Source: Bacteroidota bacterium (GTDB lineage: Bacteria > Bacteroidota > Rhodothermia > Rhodothermales > Rubricoccaceae). From it: a stretch of 38,176 nucleotides of DNA. The stretch spans positions 11,837-50,012 of the forward strand of contig DUBD01000004.1 in the NCBI GenBank assembly GCA_012960515.1. The letters run 5' to 3'. Below are positions 966 through 34,091 of this stretch, piece after piece (positions within the stretch are counted from its first letter, which is position 1; the number at the start of each line of letters is the position of its first letter). The translations under genes were made by a program, and so were the position numbers. The notes under the pieces are model-generated. The model was given only the letters and a program-made list of their open reading frames with translations. It had not been told where the DNA came from and searched no databases.

Positions 966-1871
966 ATGATAAACGAAGTCCCACGCCCAAGCAAAACGGA
1001 CCCTTCCTTTTCAAACACTCGGAGCCTCAACAGCGGTCGCTGTCGACTCGTAGCCGACCACTTCGGCTTCCTTGACGAATCGCGTCTTAACCACGGGAGG
1101 TGGCGGGCGATATCGCTGATCACAGTGTCACTCCGTCACCTCGCCTTGGCCCGAGAGACGGTCCGCCCAATCCTTCAAGACTGGCCTTCGAACTCAAAGA
1201 GCTTCCACTGGGAGGACATCCGGGCTAGGAACAAGGCGGAGGTCGCTATTGCTCTGAATACAGAGGTCGCTGGCCTTGCCCGACGTGGAGTCCTCCGAGC
1301 AGACATCTATTTCTGGGACACCCACGCGGTCTTCTACGATGTGGAAGGGCGAGACGACAAACTCGTCGCGAGCGAAAATGCAGCGGCATTGATCCGCCGA
1401 GTCTGCCAAGACCGCTGGTCAGAGTCTCGGAACTGGATGCTATACCCGCACCGGGGATCCCTGATCGATTGGAATTCGGCTACTCAACGCGCGCAACAGC
1501 GATTCGGAGCTAAGTCAAACATTGGCCTTGATTTCTGCGAGGTGAGTCTTGAGCAGGAGCCGCTTGTAGCAGTTGCGGACTTGCTCGCTAGCGCGGCTGC
1601 CTTCACGGCGAGTCACATCCACGAGAGATCGTTGGTAGAAGCAAGTAGTTGCTCCCATCGGCATCGGTGGCCGGTCATCGATCATCTCTACCGGGAAGTC
1701 CGGGACCTCGGAGTTCGGTTGACGCCGACCGTCGGGTTCAAGACTCCCGTATCGAAGAGTCCTATCAACTTCTGGCCATTCTGGGACAAGAGCGGAAAGG
1801 GGAGGGCGCCTTCCAGAACCGCGACTTCCAGACAACAGCGATACCGGGAGGCTGTGAGCAATTGCTCTTAA
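966..1871 (+). CDS. DUF3800-like protein, probably horizontally acquired
   Basis: A 301-residue protein of unknown function. Two features recall DUF3800: an early Asp-Glu-Ser signature (FLDESR, D37-S39), and a later block in which an acidic residue precedes a conserved LVAVADLLASA segment (about residues 200-210), as in the family's 'ADLLAG' motif. H81 and E83 (SFHWED) could contribute to an active site. Some DUF3800 members sit in defence or mobile regions and have been proposed to adopt an RNase H-like fold; that is family lore, not shown here. GC content (mid-50s) and codon use are clearly below the neighbours, suggesting transfer. The N-terminus is about 30 residues longer than usual before the DES motif, so a later start is possible. 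It stands alone, between a hairpin pair and a repeat patch. Confidence 0.6.
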   Translation: MINEVPRPSKTDPSFSNTRSLNSGRCRLVADHFGFLDESRLNHGRWRAISLITVSLRHLALARETVRPILQDWPSNSKSFHWEDIRARNKAEVAIALNTEVAGLARRGVLRADIYFWDTHAVFYDVEGRDDKLVASENAAALIRRVCQDRWSESRNWMLYPHRGSLIDWNSATQRAQQRFGAKSNIGLDFCEVSLEQEPLVAVADLLASAAAFTASHIHERSLVEASSCSHRHRWPVIDHLYREVRDLGVRLTPTVGFKTPVSKSPINFWPFWDKSGKGRAPSRTATSRQQRYREAVSNCS

Positions 1872-20217: not shown

Positions 20218-20565
20218 ATGATCCGCGTCCCCTTCTCCACGCCCGACATCGACGGTGGCCTCAGCGAGGGCAAGGGCGTGCTCACGCTCGACGGCGATAC
20301 GCTCACGATCGAGGTGGATGTCGCGTTCATGGGCCTCTTCAAGCGAGACTCCCGGCGCGTCCGCTTCGATATCACGGACCTGGACCAGGTCCGCCACCGC
20401 CGCTCCCCGCTGGGGGACCGCGTGACGTTCCGCACGGACCCGATGGACCTCGTGGGGCGCGTACCGGGCGCGGCGCAGGGCGAGCTGGTCCTGAAGACGA
20501 AGAAGAAGCACCGCCGCGACGTGGAGGCGCTGCTGGAGCGCCTGGAGCTGTGGATCGTGGAGTGA
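20218..20565 (+). CDS. Unknown 115-residue protein upstream of menA
   Basis: A soluble-looking 115-residue protein. Its first two thirds alternate short beta strands (GVLTLDGDTLTIEVDVAFMG, then RRVRFDITDLDQVRHRR, DRVTFRTDPMDLVGRVPG), suggestive of a small PH-like or beta-barrel domain. It ends in a basic stretch and helix (LKTKKKHRRDVEALLERLEL). There is no signal, membrane segment or recognisable motif. Its stop overlaps the GTG of menA in a GTGA quartet, so the two are translationally coupled. Whether it has anything to do with menaquinone is unknown. The PH-like idea rests only on the strand pattern. Confidence 0.7.
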   Translation: MIRVPFSTPDIDGGLSEGKGVLTLDGDTLTIEVDVAFMGLFKRDSRRVRFDITDLDQVRHRRSPLGDRVTFRTDPMDLVGRVPGAAQGELVLKTKKKHRRDVEALLERLELWIVE

Positions 20566-21458
20566 CCGGGCGGCCGTCCACGTTCCGCATCTGGTGGGAC
20601 GCGGCCCGGCCCAAGACGCTGTGGGCCGCCGTCGCGCCGGTCCTGCTGGGCGTGGGCCTCGCGATGGAGCAGGGCGCGTTCCACGCGCTCGCGGCGCTCT
20701 GCGCCCTCGCGGGCGCCGTGCTCATCCAGATCGGGACCAACTTCGTCAACGACTCCGAGGACGCGGTCAAGGGCGCGGACAACGAGGCGCGCAAGGGCCC
20801 GGTGCGGGCCGTCGCCAGCGGGTACGTCTCGCCCGCTTCGATGCGGGCGGCGGGTGCGGTCACCTTCGCGCTGGCGGTCGCGGCGGGCGGGTACCTCATC
20901 GCGCGCGGCGGCTGGCCGATCCTCGCGCTTGGGCTGGTCTGCATCGCCAGCGGCGTGGCGTACACGGCGGGCAAGTACGCGCTCGCGTACACCGGGCTGG
21001 CGGACCTCTTCGTGCTCGTGTTCTTCGGGCCGGTCGCGGTGGCCGGGACGTACTACGTGCAGGCGCTGGACCTCCCCGGCTGGGTACCCATCGCGGGGCT
21101 GGGGCCGGGCGCCCTCGCGACGGCCATCCTGCTCGCCAACAACGTGCGCGACGTGCACGAGGACCGCGCGGCGGACAAGCGGACGCTCGTGGTCCGCTTC
21201 GGGCGGACGTTCGGGGTCCGGCTCTACGGCGCGATGGTGACGCTGGCCGTCGTGGTGCCGGCGGCAATGGTGGTGGTCTCGCGCGGCCACCTCGGCGCGC
21301 TGGCGGCCTCGCTCATCGCGAGCCTGGTGGGGCGGCGGCTCACCGGCACGCTCCGCCAGTCCGAGGACCCGGCGGTGCTCAACCCACTCCTCGGGAAGAC
21401 GGCGCTGCTGCTGTTCGCCTACTGCGTGGCCTTCGCGCTGGGCTGGTGGCTGACGTAG
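20562..21458 (+). CDS. menA: 1,4-dihydroxy-2-naphthoate polyprenyltransferase
   Basis: A 298-residue UbiA-superfamily membrane prenyltransferase that attaches the polyprenyl chain to dihydroxynaphthoate in menaquinone synthesis. The opening WWDAARPKTLWAAVAPVLLG is the MenA N-terminal helix. The first Asp-rich Mg-diphosphate site is NFVNDSEDAVKGAD (about 61-73), and the second is NNVRDVHEDRAADKRTL (about 190), the MenA-type form. Eight or nine hydrophobic helices are visible. The GTG at 20562, overlapping the previous stop as GTGA, is preferred to the track's GTG at 20550. It converges on the low-GC gene, with only 15 bases between the stops. No other men genes are present in the window. Confidence 0.9.
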   Translation: MTGRPSTFRIWWDAARPKTLWAAVAPVLLGVGLAMEQGAFHALAALCALAGAVLIQIGTNFVNDSEDAVKGADNEARKGPVRAVASGYVSPASMRAAGAVTFALAVAAGGYLIARGGWPILALGLVCIASGVAYTAGKYALAYTGLADLFVLVFFGPVAVAGTYYVQALDLPGWVPIAGLGPGALATAILLANNVRDVHEDRAADKRTLVVRFGRTFGVRLYGAMVTLAVVVPAAMVVVSRGHLGALAASLIASLVGRRLTGTLRQSEDPAVLNPLLGKTALLLFAYCVAFALGWWLT

Positions 21459-21473: not shown

Positions 21474-21962
21474 TCAGCCTCCCCCTTGCAGGATCTGAGT
21501 AAGGAGGCTTCCGCCCTGCAATGCGTTTCCTACGATCGGGTGAGCCGCAAATCGGGCAAGCAAGCTGAGAGCCTCCTTTTTCTGCTCTGCCGGAGCGTCT
21601 GACGCTTCGATGACTTCGAGGAGAGCGACGAGCCGGCTGTCGATCTCTTGTCGGTTGTAGTTGCCGATCTGGTTGTTCCCTCCGAAAATGTTGATCGTCT
21701 GGGAGTCAGAAGGTGGAGGGTTGAGTCGCGTCTGACCCGCCTTTCTGATTTCTGGAAAGAACAAGGTGCCTCCATCTGCATCTCCAAAAAACTTCCCGCT
21801 GATGTACCCGTCGCGCCAGAGGGCAACGGTGGTGCGGTTCAGCCGACCTGCTTCCTGAGGCTCCAAACCGAGAAGCTCAGGCGTGAGCTCGCTTTGAGGT
21901 TCAGACCCCCTTTGGCTGTTGAGATAGCTAAGGATGCGCGCTTCAAGGTCGTCTTGGGTCAT
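21474..21962 (-). CDS. Small protein with winged-helix-like N-terminus, RHIM/amyloid-like motif and helical C-terminus
   Basis: A 162-residue protein of unknown function; ATG 21962 is chosen, since the longer ORF-track frame runs back through recD. Residues 1-80 look like a winged helix: LEARILSYL, a helix LLGLEPQEAGRLNRTTVALW, then DGYISGKFFGDADGGTLFFP as the wing. Residues 89-104 are the striking part, TINIFGGNNQIGNYNRQ: a Gly/Asn-rich strand containing Q-I-G-x-x-N, the core pattern of RHIM-type amyloid signalling motifs (RIPK1 has IQIGAYN). Residues 105-145 form a helical hairpin (LVALLEVIEASDAPAEQKKE), and the tail is Gly-rich. GC content is far below its neighbours. It starts 20 bases after recD on the same strand, so it may be co-transcribed with recCBD. 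The gene itself is likely; the motif reading is inference. Confidence 0.7.
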   Translation of the reverse strand: MTQDDLEARILSYLNSQRGSEPQSELTPELLGLEPQEAGRLNRTTVALWRDGYISGKFFGDADGGTLFFPEIRKAGQTRLNPPPSDSQTINIFGGNNQIGNYNRQEIDSRLVALLEVIEASDAPAEQKKEALSLLARFAAHPIVGNALQGGSLLTQILQGGG

Positions 21963-21982: not shown

Positions 21983-23911
21983 CTACGAAGGGAAAGCGGT
22001 GGCCTCGCCCAGCCGCTCCGCCAGCCCGCCGAGGCGGCGCTGCTGCGTCTCCACCGCCGCGTGCACCTGCGCCTCGGCCCCGAACAGCGCCACCGACTGG
22101 CGGGCCCGCGTGGCGGCGGTGTAGAGCAGCTCGCGCGTGAGGAGCGTGGCCCCGCGCGTCCCCGCCTCGGACATCACCGCGCCGACGTGGTCGAACTCCG
22201 AGCCCTGGCTTTTGTGGATGGTCAGCGCCCACGCCGGCTCGTGCGCCGGCAGCCGTGCGAGGGCCACGGGCCGCTCCAGGTGCGCAAAAACCGCGACGGG
22301 CTCCGAGGGCGTCCCCCAGAGCACGCCCACGTCGCCGTTGGAGAGCCCGGTCTCGCGGTCGTTGACGGTCACGAGGACGGGGCGGCCGCGGTAGAACGGC
22401 TCCGCGTAGGGTGGCCACCAGACGAGCTTCTCATCGCGCAGCGCGCCTTCGATGGCGGCGTTCAGGCCCTCCACGCCGCGAGGCCCCCGGCGGACCGCCG
22501 CGAGCAGCCGGAACCGTTCGAGCGCCGCCAGCGCCTCTGCCGCAGTCTCCGTCGTCACCACGTCTCGCGCGTAGCCGACGGCCCACGCGACCGCCTCGCG
22601 CACGTCCTCCGTCAGCGCGACGTCGCGCCGGGCCTCGTCGGTGAGCACCGCCAGCGCGGCGGCCCCGTCCGACTGGCGGATGGCCTCGGAGAGGGCGCCC
22701 ACGTCGGAGTCTGGGCCGAAGCGGCGGCTCTCGGTCAGGCGCACGACGGAGGCGGAGAGCGGCGTGGCGTCCGGGCTGGCGGGCACGTTCGCGAGGCCGA
22801 GGTCCGCGCAGAAGGCGGCGAGGTCGGGCGTTGCGCCTCCCTCGCCCGCGGCACAGAGGTCGGCGAAGGGCGTCCCGGCCTCTACGGGCGCCAGCTGGTC
22901 CGGGTCCCCGAGGACGACGAGCCGGGCCTCGGGGCGGAGCGCGGCCAGGAGCGCGTCGAACATCGGGAGGTCGATCATCGAGCCCTCGTCCACGAGCACG
23001 AGGTCGTGCGGGAGCGGGCGGCGGGCGTCGTGGCGGAAGCCCGCGCGCTCCGGGTGCGCGCCGAGGAGCCGGTGCAGCGTGACGGCTTCAGAGGAGCGGA
23101 GCGGCTCGGCGAGGGCGTCCGGCAGTCCGCCGAGCGCTCGCTGGATGCTCTCGGTGAGCCGTTGGGCGGCCTTGCCCGTCGGTGCCGCCAGCGCGACGCG
23201 CGTCTCGGGGCGGTCCGCGAGGACGAGCGCGAGAAGGCGAGCGGCGGTGTACGTCTTGCCCGTCCCCGGGCCGCCGGCCACGAAGAGCGCGCGCTGGCGG
23301 AGCGCCGCGGCGGCGGCGAGCGCCTGTCGGTCGAGCGCTCCGTCCTCGCGTGGGGAGAACAGCGCCGCGAACGCCTTGCGAGCGGAGTCTCCGGTCTCGC
23401 CGGGTTCGACCGTTCCTTCGGCTTCGCTCAGGACATGCAGTCGGGCGGAGACGGCGCGGGCCACGCGGCGCTCGGCGTCCACGAAGCGGCGGAACGCCAG
23501 CCGGTCGCCGCCCTCCGTGTCCGGCCGCGGCTCGATGACGAGCGGAGCGGCGGAGGCGGCGTCTCCCGCGACGGGGCTCGCCTCCAGAAAGCGCCGCCAA
23601 CTGGCGGCGTCGGGGAGCGGGGGGAGGCCGCGGAAGGCGGAGCGGGCGTGCTCGTCCTCGGGGAACGGCTGCCCGGCGTGGTCCGCGAGGGCGACGGCCG
23701 CGTGTCCGTCGCGGCGGGCGCGCGAGACGAGGGCCCCGGTGAGGGCGACCGCGCGGGCGCGGTCCGGGTCCACGGGCAGCCCTTCGCGTCGGGCGTGCTC
23801 CACGTCCAGCCCGGCGAGGAGGCGGGCCAGCGCGAGGTCCACGGCCTCGGCGGCCTCCGCTTCCGCGATGGCGTCGAGCGCGTCCGTGACGGTGCGGGGG
23901 AGCCTACGCAT
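21983..23911 (-). CDS. recD: RecBCD exonuclease V alpha subunit (RecD helicase)
   Basis: A 642-residue SF1B helicase, the fast 5'-3' motor of RecBCD. Walker A is VAGGPGTGKTYTAARLLALV (211-230), preceded by the RecD N-terminal region. Walker B is LVLVDEGSMIDLPMFDALLA, motif III is LVVLGDPDQLAPVEAGTPF, and the late motifs are LTIHKSQGSEFDHV and LLYTAATRARQSVALF. ATG 23911 overlaps the recB stop by eight bases; the track's longer frame extends into recB. Length fits classic RecD rather than the larger RecD2. The stretch encoding HVLSEAEGTVEPGE (about 159-172) is a copy of a dispersed repeat, between the N-terminal and motor domains. Confidence 0.93.
   Translation of the reverse strand: MRRLPRTVTDALDAIAEAEAAEAVDLALARLLAGLDVEHARREGLPVDPDRARAVALTGALVSRARRDGHAAVALADHAGQPFPEDEHARSAFRGLPPLPDAASWRRFLEASPVAGDAASAAPLVIEPRPDTEGGDRLAFRRFVDAERRVARAVSARLHVLSEAEGTVEPGETGDSARKAFAALFSPREDGALDRQALAAAAALRQRALFVAGGPGTGKTYTAARLLALVLADRPETRVALAAPTGKAAQRLTESIQRALGGLPDALAEPLRSSEAVTLHRLLGAHPERAGFRHDARRPLPHDLVLVDEGSMIDLPMFDALLAALRPEARLVVLGDPDQLAPVEAGTPFADLCAAGEGGATPDLAAFCADLGLANVPASPDATPLSASVVRLTESRRFGPDSDVGALSEAIRQSDGAAALAVLTDEARRDVALTEDVREAVAWAVGYARDVVTTETAAEALAALERFRLLAAVRRGPRGVEGLNAAIEGALRDEKLVWWPPYAEPFYRGRPVLVTVNDRETGLSNGDVGVLWGTPSEPVAVFAHLERPVALARLPAHEPAWALTIHKSQGSEFDHVGAVMSEAGTRGATLLTRELLYTAATRARQSVALFGAEAQVHAAVETQQRRLGGLAERLGEATAFPS
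23408..23437. repeat. Dispersed 'ccttcggcttcgctcagga' repeat inside recD
   Basis: CCTTCGGCTTCGCTCAGGAC belongs to the widespread repeat type whose reverse-strand reading gives PERSRR peptides (a shadow ORF here reads CPERSRR). It is related to the patch at 1964-2019, and here it is read in frame as LSEAEG. Confidence 0.55.
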
Positions 23912-26900
23912 CGGGCGAGAGGAGGCGGTCCAGCGCGAGGATGAGGGCAGCCGACGGTCTGTGCGTGAAAAGGGAGGGATGGGGGATGCGGGGTGCGGGA
24001 GGAGCAGCCTCGCGATCTGCCTCCCCACTCGCCTGGGGGGCGGTCTCCTCAGGCCCGCCGGTGGCTTTCGCCAGCGCGTGGGAAGCGTGTCCCTCATCCC
24101 CGATCGCGTCTCCCTCCATCCCTCTCAAAAACACATACGTCGCGCCGCCGATGTGCGTCTCGTAGTCGTACGCGGTGCCGAGGCGGGAGCGAAGGAAGCG
24201 GTGCAGCCCGAGGGTGTAGAGGTGGAGTTGGAGGCCGTAGTGGTGGCCGAGCATCGTGCTCTGGAGCGCGTCTGGCGTGTAGGCGCTCGCGTCCGATCCG
24301 AGCCGGTTGAACTTCCAGTCCGCCACCCACCACCGGTCGTCCACGCGCGCCACCACGTCGATCTCGCCGACCATCAGGCCGTCCACGGCGTCGCGCGAGA
24401 GGCGCGCGAGAGCGCGGGCGTACTCGGCGCCGAAGGGATTGGTCCCGTGCTCGCGGAACGCGTCCGCCAGCGCGGCGGGGGCGACGCGCCCGAGGGGAAA
24501 GGCGAAGCTCCACTCGGCCGTGCGGTGGTCGGCGTCGGCCATGCGGCGGGGAGCGCCGTCCGGCGAGGCGAACAGCGGCGCCGTGGCTACGCGCTCCAGG
24601 AGCGCTAGCACCTCCTCGGCGGGACGGATCGGGGCGCGGTGGGGGCGGCCCGGCTGGTCCAGCCCGTGCGCCTGGAGCAGGCGCTCGACGGTCTCGCGGT
24701 TGTGTGTGGCCGTCCGCTGGCGGGCCGTCTCGTCGGCGGGGTCGTCCCAGTGGACGTGCTGGAGGATCTGGTGGAGGCAGGTGCCCGGCCCCGTCCCGGC
24801 GGCGAAGGCGTGGAGGCCGGCGGGCGGGGCCTCGTCGCGGGTGTCGGCGTCGGCCTCGTCGGAGGCGGCGAGGCCGGCGGAGTCGTGGGGCTCGGAGCTG
24901 TAGCGGGTCCAGCCGCTGAAGGAGGCGCGGCGCCACTGGTCGCGGGCGCGCTGGCGGGCGTCGTCGGCGAGAGGATGGTCCGCGAGGTCACCGCCCGTGT
25001 TCTGTTCCGGGGCGTAGGGCGCGGCGACGGCGTCGGGGTCGCGGACGCCCATGACTTCCCCGTCCGGGTCCATCGCGCGGACCACCGCCAGCGGGTCCTC
25101 CACGGCGGCGGCGCGGCGGGCGAGCTCCACGTGGTCGGCAAGGGCGTCGGCGTCGGAACCGTCCAGCGGGGCGGCGTGGCCGGCGAGGAGGTAGCCCAGC
25201 CCGCTCATCGCGTCCAGCCGCTTCCGTCGCGCCAGCACCTGTCCCCAGATGACGTAGCACCGCTCGCGCGCCCGCGTCAGCGCGACGTACGCCTTGCGGA
25301 CGTGCTCGGCGAGGTTGTCCACCTGCCGCAGGCGCTCGGTCTCGGGCTGCATCGGCGAGCCGAGGTCGTAGACCACGCCCTCGTCGGTCCGCGCGAGCGT
25401 GGTGGCCTGCATCGTGTAGTCGCGCTCGCTCAGCGACCAGAGGTAGGGCAGGAAGACGATCTCGTACTCCAGCCCCTTCGCGTTGTGGTGCGTCGTGATG
25501 GTGACGGCCTCGGCGTCGCGCTCCAGCCGGAGTTCCTTCATCTCGCGCGAGGGGAGCGCCTGATCCTCGCGGTGGCGGAGCCAGTGCAGCAGGTCTTCGG
25601 GCGAGCGGTCGCCGCCGCCTTCGATCTCGTGGAGCAGCTCGCGGACGTGCCGGAGGTTGGTGGCGCGGCGCTCGCCGTCGGGCGTGGCGAGGACGCGCGC
25701 GAGGACGCCCTGCGTGTGCTGGAAGTCCGTGAGCACGTGGAGGACGCCGCGCGTGCGCCACATCCGGTTCCACGAGCGGACGAGCCCATGGATGCGCTCG
25801 GCCTCGGCGGTGTCGTCGTCCAGAGCGGCGATCTCGGCGGCGGACCAGCCCCATAGCGTCGTCGCGAGGGCGGCGCGGAGGGCGCGCTCGTCGTCCGGGT
25901 GGAGGACCGCGCGGAGCAGGAGTTCCACCTCCGCGATCTCGGCCGACTGGCGGACGTCGTCGGCGCGGGAGACGACGGCGGGGATGCCGAGGGCCTGGAG
26001 CGCCTGGAGCACGTCGGCGGCCTCGTAGCGGGTCGGGACGAGGACGGCGATGTCGGCGGGCGTAACGGGGCGCTCGCCCTCGTCCTCGCGCATCCGGGCC
26101 TCGCGGATCAACCGCGAGATCTCCGCCGCGACGGCTGGCGGGATGCTCTCGCTCGCGGCGGTCTTGCCGAGCGGGCGCCCCTCGCGCATGGGCGTGGGCC
26201 ACCAGACGAGGGGCGGGAGGTCGCCATCGCGCAGCGCCGGTTCCTGCTTCGCCGGGGACGAGTTCACGCGCCGGAACGGGATGCCCTCGAAGAGGAACGG
26301 GCGCTCGGCCTGCTCGAACACGCGGTTGACGGCCTCCACGAGCCCCGCCGTGCTCCGCCAGTTGGTCCCGAGCGTGAAGCGCCGCGTGGACTCGCGCTGC
26401 GCGCCGAGATAGGCGTGCACGTCCGCGCCCCGGAAGGCGTAGATGGCTTGCTTCGGATCGCCGACGAAGTAGAGCGGGCGGCCCTCGAAGGCGCGGCGGA
26501 AGATGGCGTACTGCTGCGGGTCGGTGTCCTGGAACTCGTCGATGAGGGCGACGGAGAACAGCCGCCGGATGCTCTGCGCCAGGAGCGGCCCGGTGGCATC
26601 GTCCGCCAGCGCGTCGTGGAGACGGGCGATGAGGTCGCTGAAGGTGAGCTGGCCGCGGTGCTCTTTGATGGCCTCGACGCGGGCGCCGACCTCGCGCGTG
26701 AACGTGCGGACGAACGCGGTGTCCAGCGCGTCCGCGGCGGTGACGACGGCCTCGCAGGCGAGGAAGCCGGCCCATTGCGTCGCGGCTTCCAGCGTGGCTT
26801 TCTGGTCCTTGCTCCGCTTCGCGCCGACTTTCTTGATCGCGGCCGGGGTGCAGACGCGAACGGCGGAGATCCCGTCGGGGTCGCGTCCCTCGGCGAAGGC

Positions 26901-31908: not shown

Positions 31909-32586
31909 TCAGCGGCCGGCGTAGAGCGGGCTCCGCGTCAGCACGTCGTACGGGTTGACGGGCGTGCCGCGGCCGGAGCCGGTCTTGCGGAGCACCTGGA
32001 AGTGGAGGTGCGGGCCCTGCGCGTTGCCTGTGCTGCCCACCGTGCCCAGCACGTCGCCGCGGCGGACCTCGGTGCCGATCTCGACATCGTCCGCGTAGGC
32101 GTCCAGGTGCGCGTAGTAGAAGTCGTGCGTGCCGTCTGCGCTCGTGAGGTAGAGCGTGCGCCCGCCGAGGCTGTTCCAGTGCTTCCGCGAGATCCGTCCG
32201 TCCACGACGGCCACGACGGGCGTTCCGGTGGGCGCCGCGATGTCGATGGCGTTGTGCGTGCGGCCGCCGGACCGCGGGGCGTGGAACGAGTCGCGGAGCT
32301 GGCTCACCTCGATGCCCTCCACCGGGATCATGAGGCCGGCCGCGAGGCCGGGGGCGGCACCGCTCGGGCGCGGGGTAGCGGCGCCGGGCCGCTCCGGGCG
32401 CTCCGCCACGATGCGGACGGCGCCCGTCCGGGGCCGCTCGGCCGGCCGCTCCGTCGCGCGGTCACTGCCGCGGTCGGAGCGGGGCGCCATGGCCCACCCG
32501 CTGGCGGCCGTTCCGGCGGAGGGGGCCGCGCAGGCCGTGAGGACCACCGCCAGCGCGGCGAGCGAGAGGATCGGGAGGGAGCGCAT
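31909..32586 (-). CDS. M23 family metallopeptidase, lipoprotein
   Basis: A 225-residue peptidoglycan endopeptidase-type protein. The N-terminus ILSLAALAVVLTACAAPS is a lipoprotein signal with cysteine at residue 19. An Arg/Pro-rich linker follows, then the LasA/lysostaphin-type domain: RTHNAIDIAAPTGTPVVAVV with H111 and D115 as zinc ligands, DFYYAHLDAYADDVEIGTEV, and GNAQGPHLHFQVLRK with H193-x-H195. All ligands are intact, so it is probably an active zinc hydrolase. It shares the IPVEGIxxxxLxDSF/PRSGGR block with the next two genes. It is probably co-transcribed with the M23 gene 51 bases upstream. Confidence 0.88.
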   Translation of the reverse strand: MRSLPILSLAALAVVLTACAAPSAGTAASGWAMAPRSDRGSDRATERPAERPRTGAVRIVAERPERPGAATPRPSGAAPGLAAGLMIPVEGIEVSQLRDSFHAPRSGGRTHNAIDIAAPTGTPVVAVVDGRISRKHWNSLGGRTLYLTSADGTHDFYYAHLDAYADDVEIGTEVRRGDVLGTVGSTGNAQGPHLHFQVLRKTGSGRGTPVNPYDVLTRSPLYAGR

Positions 32587-32637: not shown

Positions 32638-33231
32638 TCAACCCCGGACCGTCTCGCGGTCGGTGTGGAGCTCGCTCCGCCGTAGCAGAGGATACGGGTT
32701 GACGGGGCTGCCCCGCCCACGCGATCCGTCCCGCCGGAGCACCTGGAAGTGGAGGTGCGGCGCGCGCGCGTTGCCCGTCGTGCCGACGTAGCCGATCACG
32801 TCGCCCTGCCGCACCTCCGTGCCGACGCTCATGCCGTCGGCGTAACGCGAGAGGTGCGCGTAGTAGAAATCGTGCGAGCCGTCCGCGCTGCGGAGGTAGA
32901 GCGTGATGCCGCCCAGACGGTTGCGCGTGCGGCGCACGATCTCCCCGTCCGCGACGGCCAGCACGGGCGTCCCGCGCGGCGCCATGATGTCGATGGAGCG
33001 GTGCACGCGCCCGCCGGAGCGCGGCGACGTGAACGAGTCCTTGAGGTCGTCCGGGGCGATGCCTTCGACGGGGATGAGCAGGCGGTTCAGGCTAAAGCTC
33101 CGCGCCTCGCGCGTGAGCTGGGCGGGGACCTCGGTCGTGTCCGCGCTGGCGGGCGGCGTCAGCGGGGCGGGCGGCGTGGCGGAGACGGGGAGGGCGAGCG
33201 CGGCGAGGGCCGCGGCGAAGAGGAGACGCAC
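32638..33231 (-). CDS. M23 family metallopeptidase, exported
   Basis: A 197-residue paralogue of the preceding gene. The track starts at 33285, but GTG 33231 gives a proper signal peptide, RLLFAAALAALALPVSA, without cysteine, so this one is secreted or periplasmic rather than lipid-anchored. The M23 domain has RVHRSIDIMAPRGTPVLAVA (H77, D81), DFYYAHLSRYADGMSVGTEV and GNARAPHLHFQVLRRDG (H159-x-H161). All zinc ligands are present. A small Pro/Ala-rich spacer separates the signal and domain. A TAGGTTCTT box 69 bases upstream of the GTG and a CACCCC/GGGGTG hairpin (33283-33298) mark its 5' region. Confidence 0.87.
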   Translation of the reverse strand: MRLLFAAALAALALPVSATPPAPLTPPASADTTEVPAQLTREARSFSLNRLLIPVEGIAPDDLKDSFTSPRSGGRVHRSIDIMAPRGTPVLAVADGEIVRRTRNRLGGITLYLRSADGSHDFYYAHLSRYADGMSVGTEVRQGDVIGYVGTTGNARAPHLHFQVLRRDGSRGRGSPVNPYPLLRRSELHTDRETVRG

Positions 33232-33300
33232 GGGGGGCGGAGGGTGGTGGTGAGGCCCGGCGCACCCCTCGGATCGGGGCGCCACCCCTGGCGGGGTGCG

Positions 33301-33400: not shown

Positions 33401-34063
33401 TTACTCCGCCCCGCTGGCGGTGGCGGTGCGCGAGGAGTCCGGCGCCGCGTAGGGGGCGCGCGCCCGGTCCGAGATCCGCTGGCGCACGTCCAGGAAGCGG
33501 AGGAGGCCGTACGGGTTGAGCGGCGTCTCGCGCCCGCCCGCGCGGAGCACCATCTGCAGGTGGAGGTGCGGCGGCGTGCCGCGCGCGTTGCCCGTCGTGC
33601 CGACGGTGCCGAGCGTGTCGCCGCGGGCGACGGACTGGCCCGCGCGGAGGCCGTCGGCGAAGGCGTCCAGGTGCGCGTAGTAGAACGCGTAGCGGCCCGT
33701 CTCGCTGCGGAGCCAGAGCGCGTTGCCGCCCAGCCCGTTCGTGCCCACGCTCTCCAGTGTCCCGTCCGTGATGGCCACCACGGGCGTCCCGCGCGGCGCG
33801 AAGAGGTCCAGCGCGAGGTGCGTCCGGCCCCCGGAGCGCGCCGTCCGGTAGGAGTCGTAGAGGTCCTCCGGGTTCACGCCCACCACGGGCATCACCACCT
33901 CCGAGCCGTCCAGCGCGCGCGGAGCGGAGTGCGCGCTGGCGGTGCGCGTGGAGGCGCCCGGCGCATCCGTGGAGAACGGCGCGGGCTCGCCGGGCCGCGC
34001 GAGCCAGATGGCCGCGGCTCCGGCGAGGAGCCCCACAAGAGCGGCGATGGCGACGAACTTCAC
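33401..34063 (-). CDS. M23 family metallopeptidase, membrane-anchored
   Basis: A 220-residue third paralogue. GTG 34063 is chosen over the track's ATG at 34087 because a promoter-like TACTTTGGG overlaps that ATG. The N-terminus KFVAIAALVGLLAGAAAIWL is a signal or anchor without cysteine. The domain shows RTHLALDLFAPRGTPVVAIT (H82, D86), AFYYAHLDAFADGLRAGQSV and GTPPHLHLQMVLR (H166-x-H168), where the other two have HFQ. Metal ligands are intact. The last codons, reading TASGAE, are themselves a copy of the dispersed repeat (33406-33420). It is more divergent than the other two and has its own promoter box. Confidence 0.85.
   Translation of the reverse strand: MKFVAIAALVGLLAGAAAIWLARPGEPAPFSTDAPGASTRTASAHSAPRALDGSEVVMPVVGVNPEDLYDSYRTARSGGRTHLALDLFAPRGTPVVAITDGTLESVGTNGLGGNALWLRSETGRYAFYYAHLDAFADGLRAGQSVARGDTLGTVGTTGNARGTPPHLHLQMVLRAGGRETPLNPYGLLRFLDVRQRISDRARAPYAAPDSSRTATASGAE
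33406..33420 (-). repeat. Copy of the dispersed motif at the 3' end of the third M23 gene
   Basis: CCGCCCCGCTGGCGG overlaps the last codons of the gene, encoding ASGAE just before the stop. Confidence 0.6.
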
Positions 34064-34082
34064 GGGCGGAGGCGAGGACCGC

Positions 34083-34091
34083 CCCAAAGTA
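34083..34091 (-). promoter_or_regulatory. Putative -7 promoter box TACTTTGGG
   Basis: Minus strand, 19 bases before GTG 34063 of the third M23 gene. It is the closest match in the window to the classical Bacteroidota TAnnTTTG. Confidence 0.45.

Follow-up and report, generated by a model that had tools for sequence, protein, structure and literature searches.

We analysed a 38,176-nucleotide stretch of DNA (the window) in which a small gene lies between recD and menA, with the following features:

20550 to 21458, plus strand: menA (UbiA family, PF01040), the convergent neighbour.
21474 to 21962, minus strand: gene for a 162-residue protein, assigned to a RHIM-like module family by a profile match and the A4 alignment (GC3 0.632).
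21474 to 21647, minus strand: residues 106-162 and the stop codon, predicted helical hairpin and uncharged Gly-rich tail (invariant I, E, E and H-P; AlphaFold helices).
21648 to 21698, minus strand: residues 89-105, the RHIM-like motif TINIFGGNNQIGNYNRQ (Q, G and N invariant in alignments A3 and A4; the aligned stretch of phage relatives matches PF12721).
21654 to 21671, minus strand: the core QIGNYN within the motif.
21705 to 21962, minus strand: residues 1-86, N-terminal region, possibly winged-helix-like (23% over 52 aa against an E. coli relative).
21983 to 24097, minus strand: recD, the upstream neighbour, a housekeeping gene (Pfam RecD_N PF21185, AAA_19/AAA_30 and UvrD_C_2).

The low-GC, single-frame gene that a sequence-only reading had placed directly behind recD was recovered when the open reading frame, coordinates and GC were recomputed. 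Its 162 codons are uninterrupted by a stop, it starts 20 bases after the stop of recD on the same strand, and it ends 15 bases from menA, towards which it converges. The GC content is 0.569 (0.632, 0.442 and 0.632 at the three codon positions), compared to 0.763 for recD (GC3 0.915), 0.740 for menA (0.970) and 0.754 for recC (0.958). Because no 489-base stretch elsewhere in the window has a lower GC, and because its GC3 lies far from the 0.92-0.97 of recD, menA, recC and tyrS, it was probably acquired horizontally. A longer frame of 314 aa running through recD was rejected, its Arg/Ala/Gly-rich extension overlapping recD in another frame. At 966-1871 (plus strand) lies one more gene of low GC (301 aa, GC 0.576, GC3 0.649; no Pfam match at E<=0.01), likely a further import. 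Three tandem paralogous ORFs on the minus strand (31909-32586, 32638-33285 and 33401-34087) have the stretch DS...PRSGGR.H...D in common and resemble, by eye, M23-type peptidases.

The window protein (P0001) has no match in Pfam, NCBIfam, PADLOC or the PDB, and direct searches with it returned none in plasmids, phages, viral contigs or genome contigs. A phylum-wide search gave one weak match, to protein P0002 of genome G125 (E=1.1e-6, residues 95-151), and phrog_16834 matched residues 85-146 (E=2.7e-5); relatives could be reached only via this weak match and PHROGs. P0002 led to the Enterobacter plasmid protein P0004 (47% over 97 aa), and later relatives came from Erwinia, Mangrovibacter, viral contigs and 11 of 5426 E. 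coli genomes. We define the module here as a QIG-x-x-N motif followed by an EEKxEA hairpin, an HP pair and an uncharged tail. A profile built from seven relatives without P0001 matched it at 52.1 bits (E=2.7e-14, 10,000 sequences), the motif and the hairpin both aligning in register, and the best of 5000 shuffles of P0001 reached 9.0 bits. In A4, the invariant columns are Q14, G16 and N19 of the motif and I34, E42, E46, H57 and P58 of the hairpin; the NNQIGNYN stretch to which the sequence-only reading had drawn attention is thus conserved in homologues at its Q, G and N. The hexamer alone is mildly unusual (of 5000 shuffled versions of the protein, 39 contain Q[IV]G..N, 0.8%), and with a motif-only profile P0001 scored 9.1 bits and ranked second of 5001 sequences. 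Since the motif by itself is weak evidence, the assignment rests on the whole module, in whose alignment P0001 is the most divergent sequence. By this homology, the C-terminal half, comprising the NNQIGNYN motif, the helical hairpin and the uncharged tail, is part of a mobile module. Two sets of candidates were set aside: a second match in the protein's own genome (C191, 34% over 69 aa) was judged a chance match after reading its locus, and looser relatives of the AbiTii and SQIQQG types are not counted as members, the joint alignment retaining no invariant column.

Relatives with the same layout as the window protein were found in its phylum, in Enterobacterales and in viral contigs. A second set, from tailed-phage contigs and the Cronobacter phage ENT39118 (P0017, P0018, P0022 and L026), carries the same C-terminal module on another, beta-rich N-terminal domain. 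Across the phylum, with 297 genomes searched, the profile matched G000 and G125 and nothing else save the motif alone in G303. The G303 relative, in the genus of G125 (locus L034, 1495-1896, minus strand), breaks off directly behind its motif (GNAQIGDRW), and its module appears to be decaying or rearranged. Among 274 genomes of Erwinia's class only Erwinia itself was matched, and the family is therefore rare in that class. In one Leclercia plasmid protein, the partner fused to the beta-rich domain is a CAP12/Pycsar TIR domain (PF10137, E=4e-35). The beta-rich domain itself has no Pfam match and recurs with a RHIM-like or TIR partner at L053 (3986-5086), L018, L028 and L052, and could possibly be a common sensor or adaptor domain. 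On Phaeobacter, Agrobacterium and Sinorhizobium plasmids (L054:3995-4573, L055:4001-4627 and L056), the beta-rich domain is followed by the motif NIxGxNARVNINSTDNS and helices; this is perhaps another assembly motif. The papers searched, a set outside which preprints and most subscription journals fall, contained no study of the module family.

The AlphaFold model of the window protein has an overall pLDDT of 46.6. Helices at residues 101-119 and 125-140 (pLDDT about 70) agree with the helical hairpin that had been read from the sequence, and the model of the Mangrovibacter relative repeats it (residues 125-140 and 146-161). The QIG stretch has low pLDDT, is rich in Gly, Asn and Gln, and lies between two separable domains. 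After HP141-142 the tail of the window protein is free of charged residues, and the tails of relatives, often Gly-rich, have 0-1; that of the window protein is only moderately hydrophobic (maximum KD17 0.91). Such an uncharged tail would suit clustering at a membrane. The N-terminal half falls below pLDDT 50 in both models. It is weakly collinear with that of the E. coli relative (E=0.29), an hhalign profile comparison of this half gave no match, and a fold search found no significant match, as a model of such low confidence would lead one to expect. The winged helix that had been read from the sequence is thus a tentative label for this half.

The protein might instead be a small DNA-binding regulator, for example the repressor of some mobile element or defence island, with a winged helix as its N-terminal half and with the QIG motif and hairpin serving to oligomerise the protein on DNA, without amyloid or toxicity. 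The layout of the relatives, an N-terminal domain ending in ...GLILTEEGQ and then the module, is consistent with such a regulator, as are sub-threshold wHTH-PRTase_assc matches of the looser relatives P0004 (E=0.056) and P0008 (E=0.014). However, phage members join the module to a quite different, beta-rich domain, which argues against a fixed link between the module and DNA binding; a Gly-rich tail free of charge would be unusual in a regulator, and the phage members match RHIM. We consider this explanation unlikely.

It has been previously reported that the core tetrad of the RHIM reads (V/I)-Q-(V/I/L/C)-G (PMC9444067). Within the aligned stretch, three phage members exceed the curated Pfam cut-off of 20 bits for PF12721 (P0017, 26.4 bits; L028:5710-6204, 27.9; L026:2-406, 25.8), with cores IQVG, IQVG and IQIG, and P0018 (core VQIG) stays below it at 15.1 bits. 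The core is AQVG in enterobacterial members (A-Q-[IV]-G), AQIG in G125 and NQIG in the window protein, which keeps three of the four core positions and fails the tetrad. Neither P0001, its motif peptide nor its own genome matches PF12721, and none of the 297 genomes of the phylum has a match above the cut-off. The RHIM likeness proposed from the sequence alone therefore stands in part: the motif is conserved and phage homologues pass PF12721 in the aligned stretch, but P0001 itself does not match, its core being N-Q-I-G. As judged by alignment, the window protein is homologous over the module to RHIM-scoring proteins, yet it fails the strict RHIM test.

These divergent cores bear on a further explanation, namely that the Q-I-G-x-x-N stretch serves as a short beta element or linker of an ordinary kind, kept for folding with the hairpin, and that its RHIM likeness is convergent and involves no signalling amyloid. 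The three of four core positions in P0001, the A-Q-[IV]-G of enterobacterial relatives and the low motif-only score would fit this account. The three phage members above the curated cut-off argue against it, as does the setting of the stretch, with its Gly/Asn/Gln richness and low pLDDT between separable domains, and we find it rather improbable.

At 10 of 10 other wHTH-like loci examined, a gene for a zinc-ribbon protein of about 85 aa lies directly 3' of the wHTH-like relative: in G125 (L005), on the Enterobacter plasmid (L009), in Erwinia (L013) and Mangrovibacter (L014), on three viral contigs (L015-L017) and in E. coli (L021, L022 and L057). In two of the three E. coli islands its frame is broken. 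The zinc ribbon of relatives matches the PADLOC candidate PDC-M14A (E=3e-10 and 9e-9). In addition, the type I RM genes hsdS and hsdR lie close by at the G125 locus, and the island around the E. coli copies encodes a GIY-YIG nuclease (T5orf172, PDC-S57 match) and type I RM or BREX. Between zinc ribbon and nuclease, two of these islands (L022:9840-10814 and L021:9842-10816) encode a 324-aa protein without a Pfam match, which has a weak mid-protein PADLOC match to REase_II (E=4e-4). A survey of PDC-M14A found it in 5 of 307 genomes, mostly as longer zinc-ribbon proteins, and only that of G125 adjoins the RHIM-like module. At L063, in a genome of the window's class (G167), a PDC-M14A-like zinc ribbon has as its neighbour a protein that, judged by eye, contains a TIR-like stretch, which suggests that the zinc ribbon can pair with TIR or RHIM-like proteins. 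By association, these surroundings point to conflict biology. The sequence-only reading had expected relatives near defence or recCBD genes; type I RM, BREX, GIY-YIG and zinc-ribbon genes bear out the first of these, and none of the relatives lies by recBCD.

The zinc-ribbon partner was found neither in the window nor in the protein's own genome (92% complete). No such gene follows the window gene, the position of menA leaving no room for one, and no recognised defence gene adjoins it in the window. The gene could therefore be an orphaned remnant, half of a two-gene cassette of module protein and zinc ribbon that lost its partner after landing behind recD and now does little. Consistent with this, the zinc ribbon is present at ten other wHTH-like loci and absent here, the gene is missing from all eight other genomes of the window's taxonomic family, and P0001 is the outlier of the alignment. 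On the other hand, the frame is intact over 162 codons with the conserved residues kept, and phage members of the family also occur without a zinc ribbon, so the partner may be dispensable. We regard a remnant that now does little as quite improbable.

The position behind recD had been read as possibly functional, with the gene perhaps serving as a watcher of RecBCD inhibition. None of the homologues found has recD or recBCD as a neighbour. The gene is absent from the congener G004, where menA is conserved (79%) and the menA-recD interval holds NAD-kinase-like, band-7-like and Nudix-like genes (named by eye); G005, G006 and G008 have no such gene behind recD, and in the first 4.4 kb or so downstream from it no menA was found. 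Because the neighbours of relatives and the recD-menA junction differ, and because the base composition is foreign, the position looks incidental, although co-transcription by read-through from recD is possible. Thus, a watcher functionally coupled to the recCBD operon, for which the shared strand and the 20-base spacing speak, is highly improbable given homologues placed elsewhere, the congener and three other family members without the gene behind recD, and the foreign base composition. In terms of homology, the motif insight of the sequence-only reading is backed, and its recCBD story is not.

Taken together, we give about an even chance to the following explanation: the window gene arrived by horizontal transfer and belongs, as a divergent member standing alone, to a mobile family whose small, defence-associated proteins join a RHIM-like module to a variable N-terminal domain. 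The family design would combine this variable domain (wHTH-like at best in the window, small and beta-rich in phages) with the RHIM-like motif, the hairpin and a Gly-rich tail. In the proposed mechanism, the N-terminal domain would sense a cue related to phage or DNA. Several molecules would then stack their QIG-x-x-N motifs into a cross-beta, RHIM-like assembly, as homology to RHIM-scoring proteins suggests. This assembly would cluster the helical or hydrophobic tails, leading to membrane insertion or to recruitment of a partner, the zinc ribbon in relatives. Finally, the infected cell would be stopped, a defence outcome to which the neighbouring genes point. The data show that the C-terminal module belongs to the family, that its motif is conserved, that the base composition is foreign and that relatives have defence neighbourhoods and a zinc-ribbon partner, while sensing, amyloid assembly, toxicity and anti-phage activity are inferred; since the canonical partner was not found in the window genome, the gene there would act alone, as a self-contained effector, or be an orphaned piece.

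Reviewers of amyloid signalling have asked if bacteria have NLR-independent signalling amyloids (PMC7889193). The module family is a compact candidate, with proteins of about 160-180 residues and phage motifs that pass the RHIM model, and its two-gene cassette is already present in some E. coli chromosomes. The interesting object is thus the family rather than the single gene: an NLR-independent, phage- and plasmid-borne RHIM-like module of unicellular bacteria, through which the range of the animal necroptosis motif could come to include ordinary unicellular bacteria as well as their phages. Tentatively, and as less likely than not, we suggest a RHIM-type signalling amyloid that is NLR-independent and common to bacteria, plasmids and temperate phages, in which interchangeable sensors share one module that acts through a membrane-active tail or together with a zinc-ribbon partner. 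It would serve in both phage-against-phage and host-against-phage conflict, and the window protein would be its stand-alone version.

Several known systems resemble parts of this family. The PADLOC candidate PDC-M14 corresponds to the zinc-ribbon partner of relatives through PDC-M14A, whereas the window gene lacks that partner and the RHIM-like protein matches no PADLOC model. CAP12/Pycsar TIR effectors (PF10137) have the beta-rich N-terminal domain in common with the phage RHIM-like members, but the window protein has neither this domain nor a TIR domain. AbiTii proteins (PF18864) with a SQIQIG-type tail, together with phrog_16834, show a Q-I-G/Q-I-Q-rich stretch, then helices and a hydrophobic end; phrog_16834 matches P0001 and P0003, and P0003 in turn matches AbiTii tails. 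This relation to P0001 is weak and transitive, and the N-terminal domain and motif spelling differ. The RHIM itself (PF12721; RIPK1, RIPK3, TRIF, ZBP1 and viral RHIMs) shares the short Q-hydrophobic-G core in a Gly/Asn/Gln-rich setting, but the window protein lacks both the PF12721 match and a kinase or adaptor partner. A bacterial parallel is BASS3 (Dyrka et al. 2020, as cited in PMC7889193 and PMC8086366), an amyloid signalling motif of the RHIM/PP type that multicellular bacteria carry in NLR/BELL pairs (PMC7889193, PMC8086366, PMC12261475); like the module, it is related to the RHIM and occurs in bacterial proteins to which a role in defence or cell death is ascribed. Neither an NLR nor a BELL gene turned up next to any locus examined, the window gene has recD and menA as neighbours and shares its motif with no adjacent NLR or BELL effector gene, and neither a second module copy nor a QIG[DN]xxN-coding site was found in its own genome (92% complete). 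Compared by description, BASS motifs lie at protein ends in NLR and BELL effector gene pairs, whereas the motif described here is internal, and its family resides in plasmids, phages and unicellular Enterobacterales rather than in multicellular bacteria.
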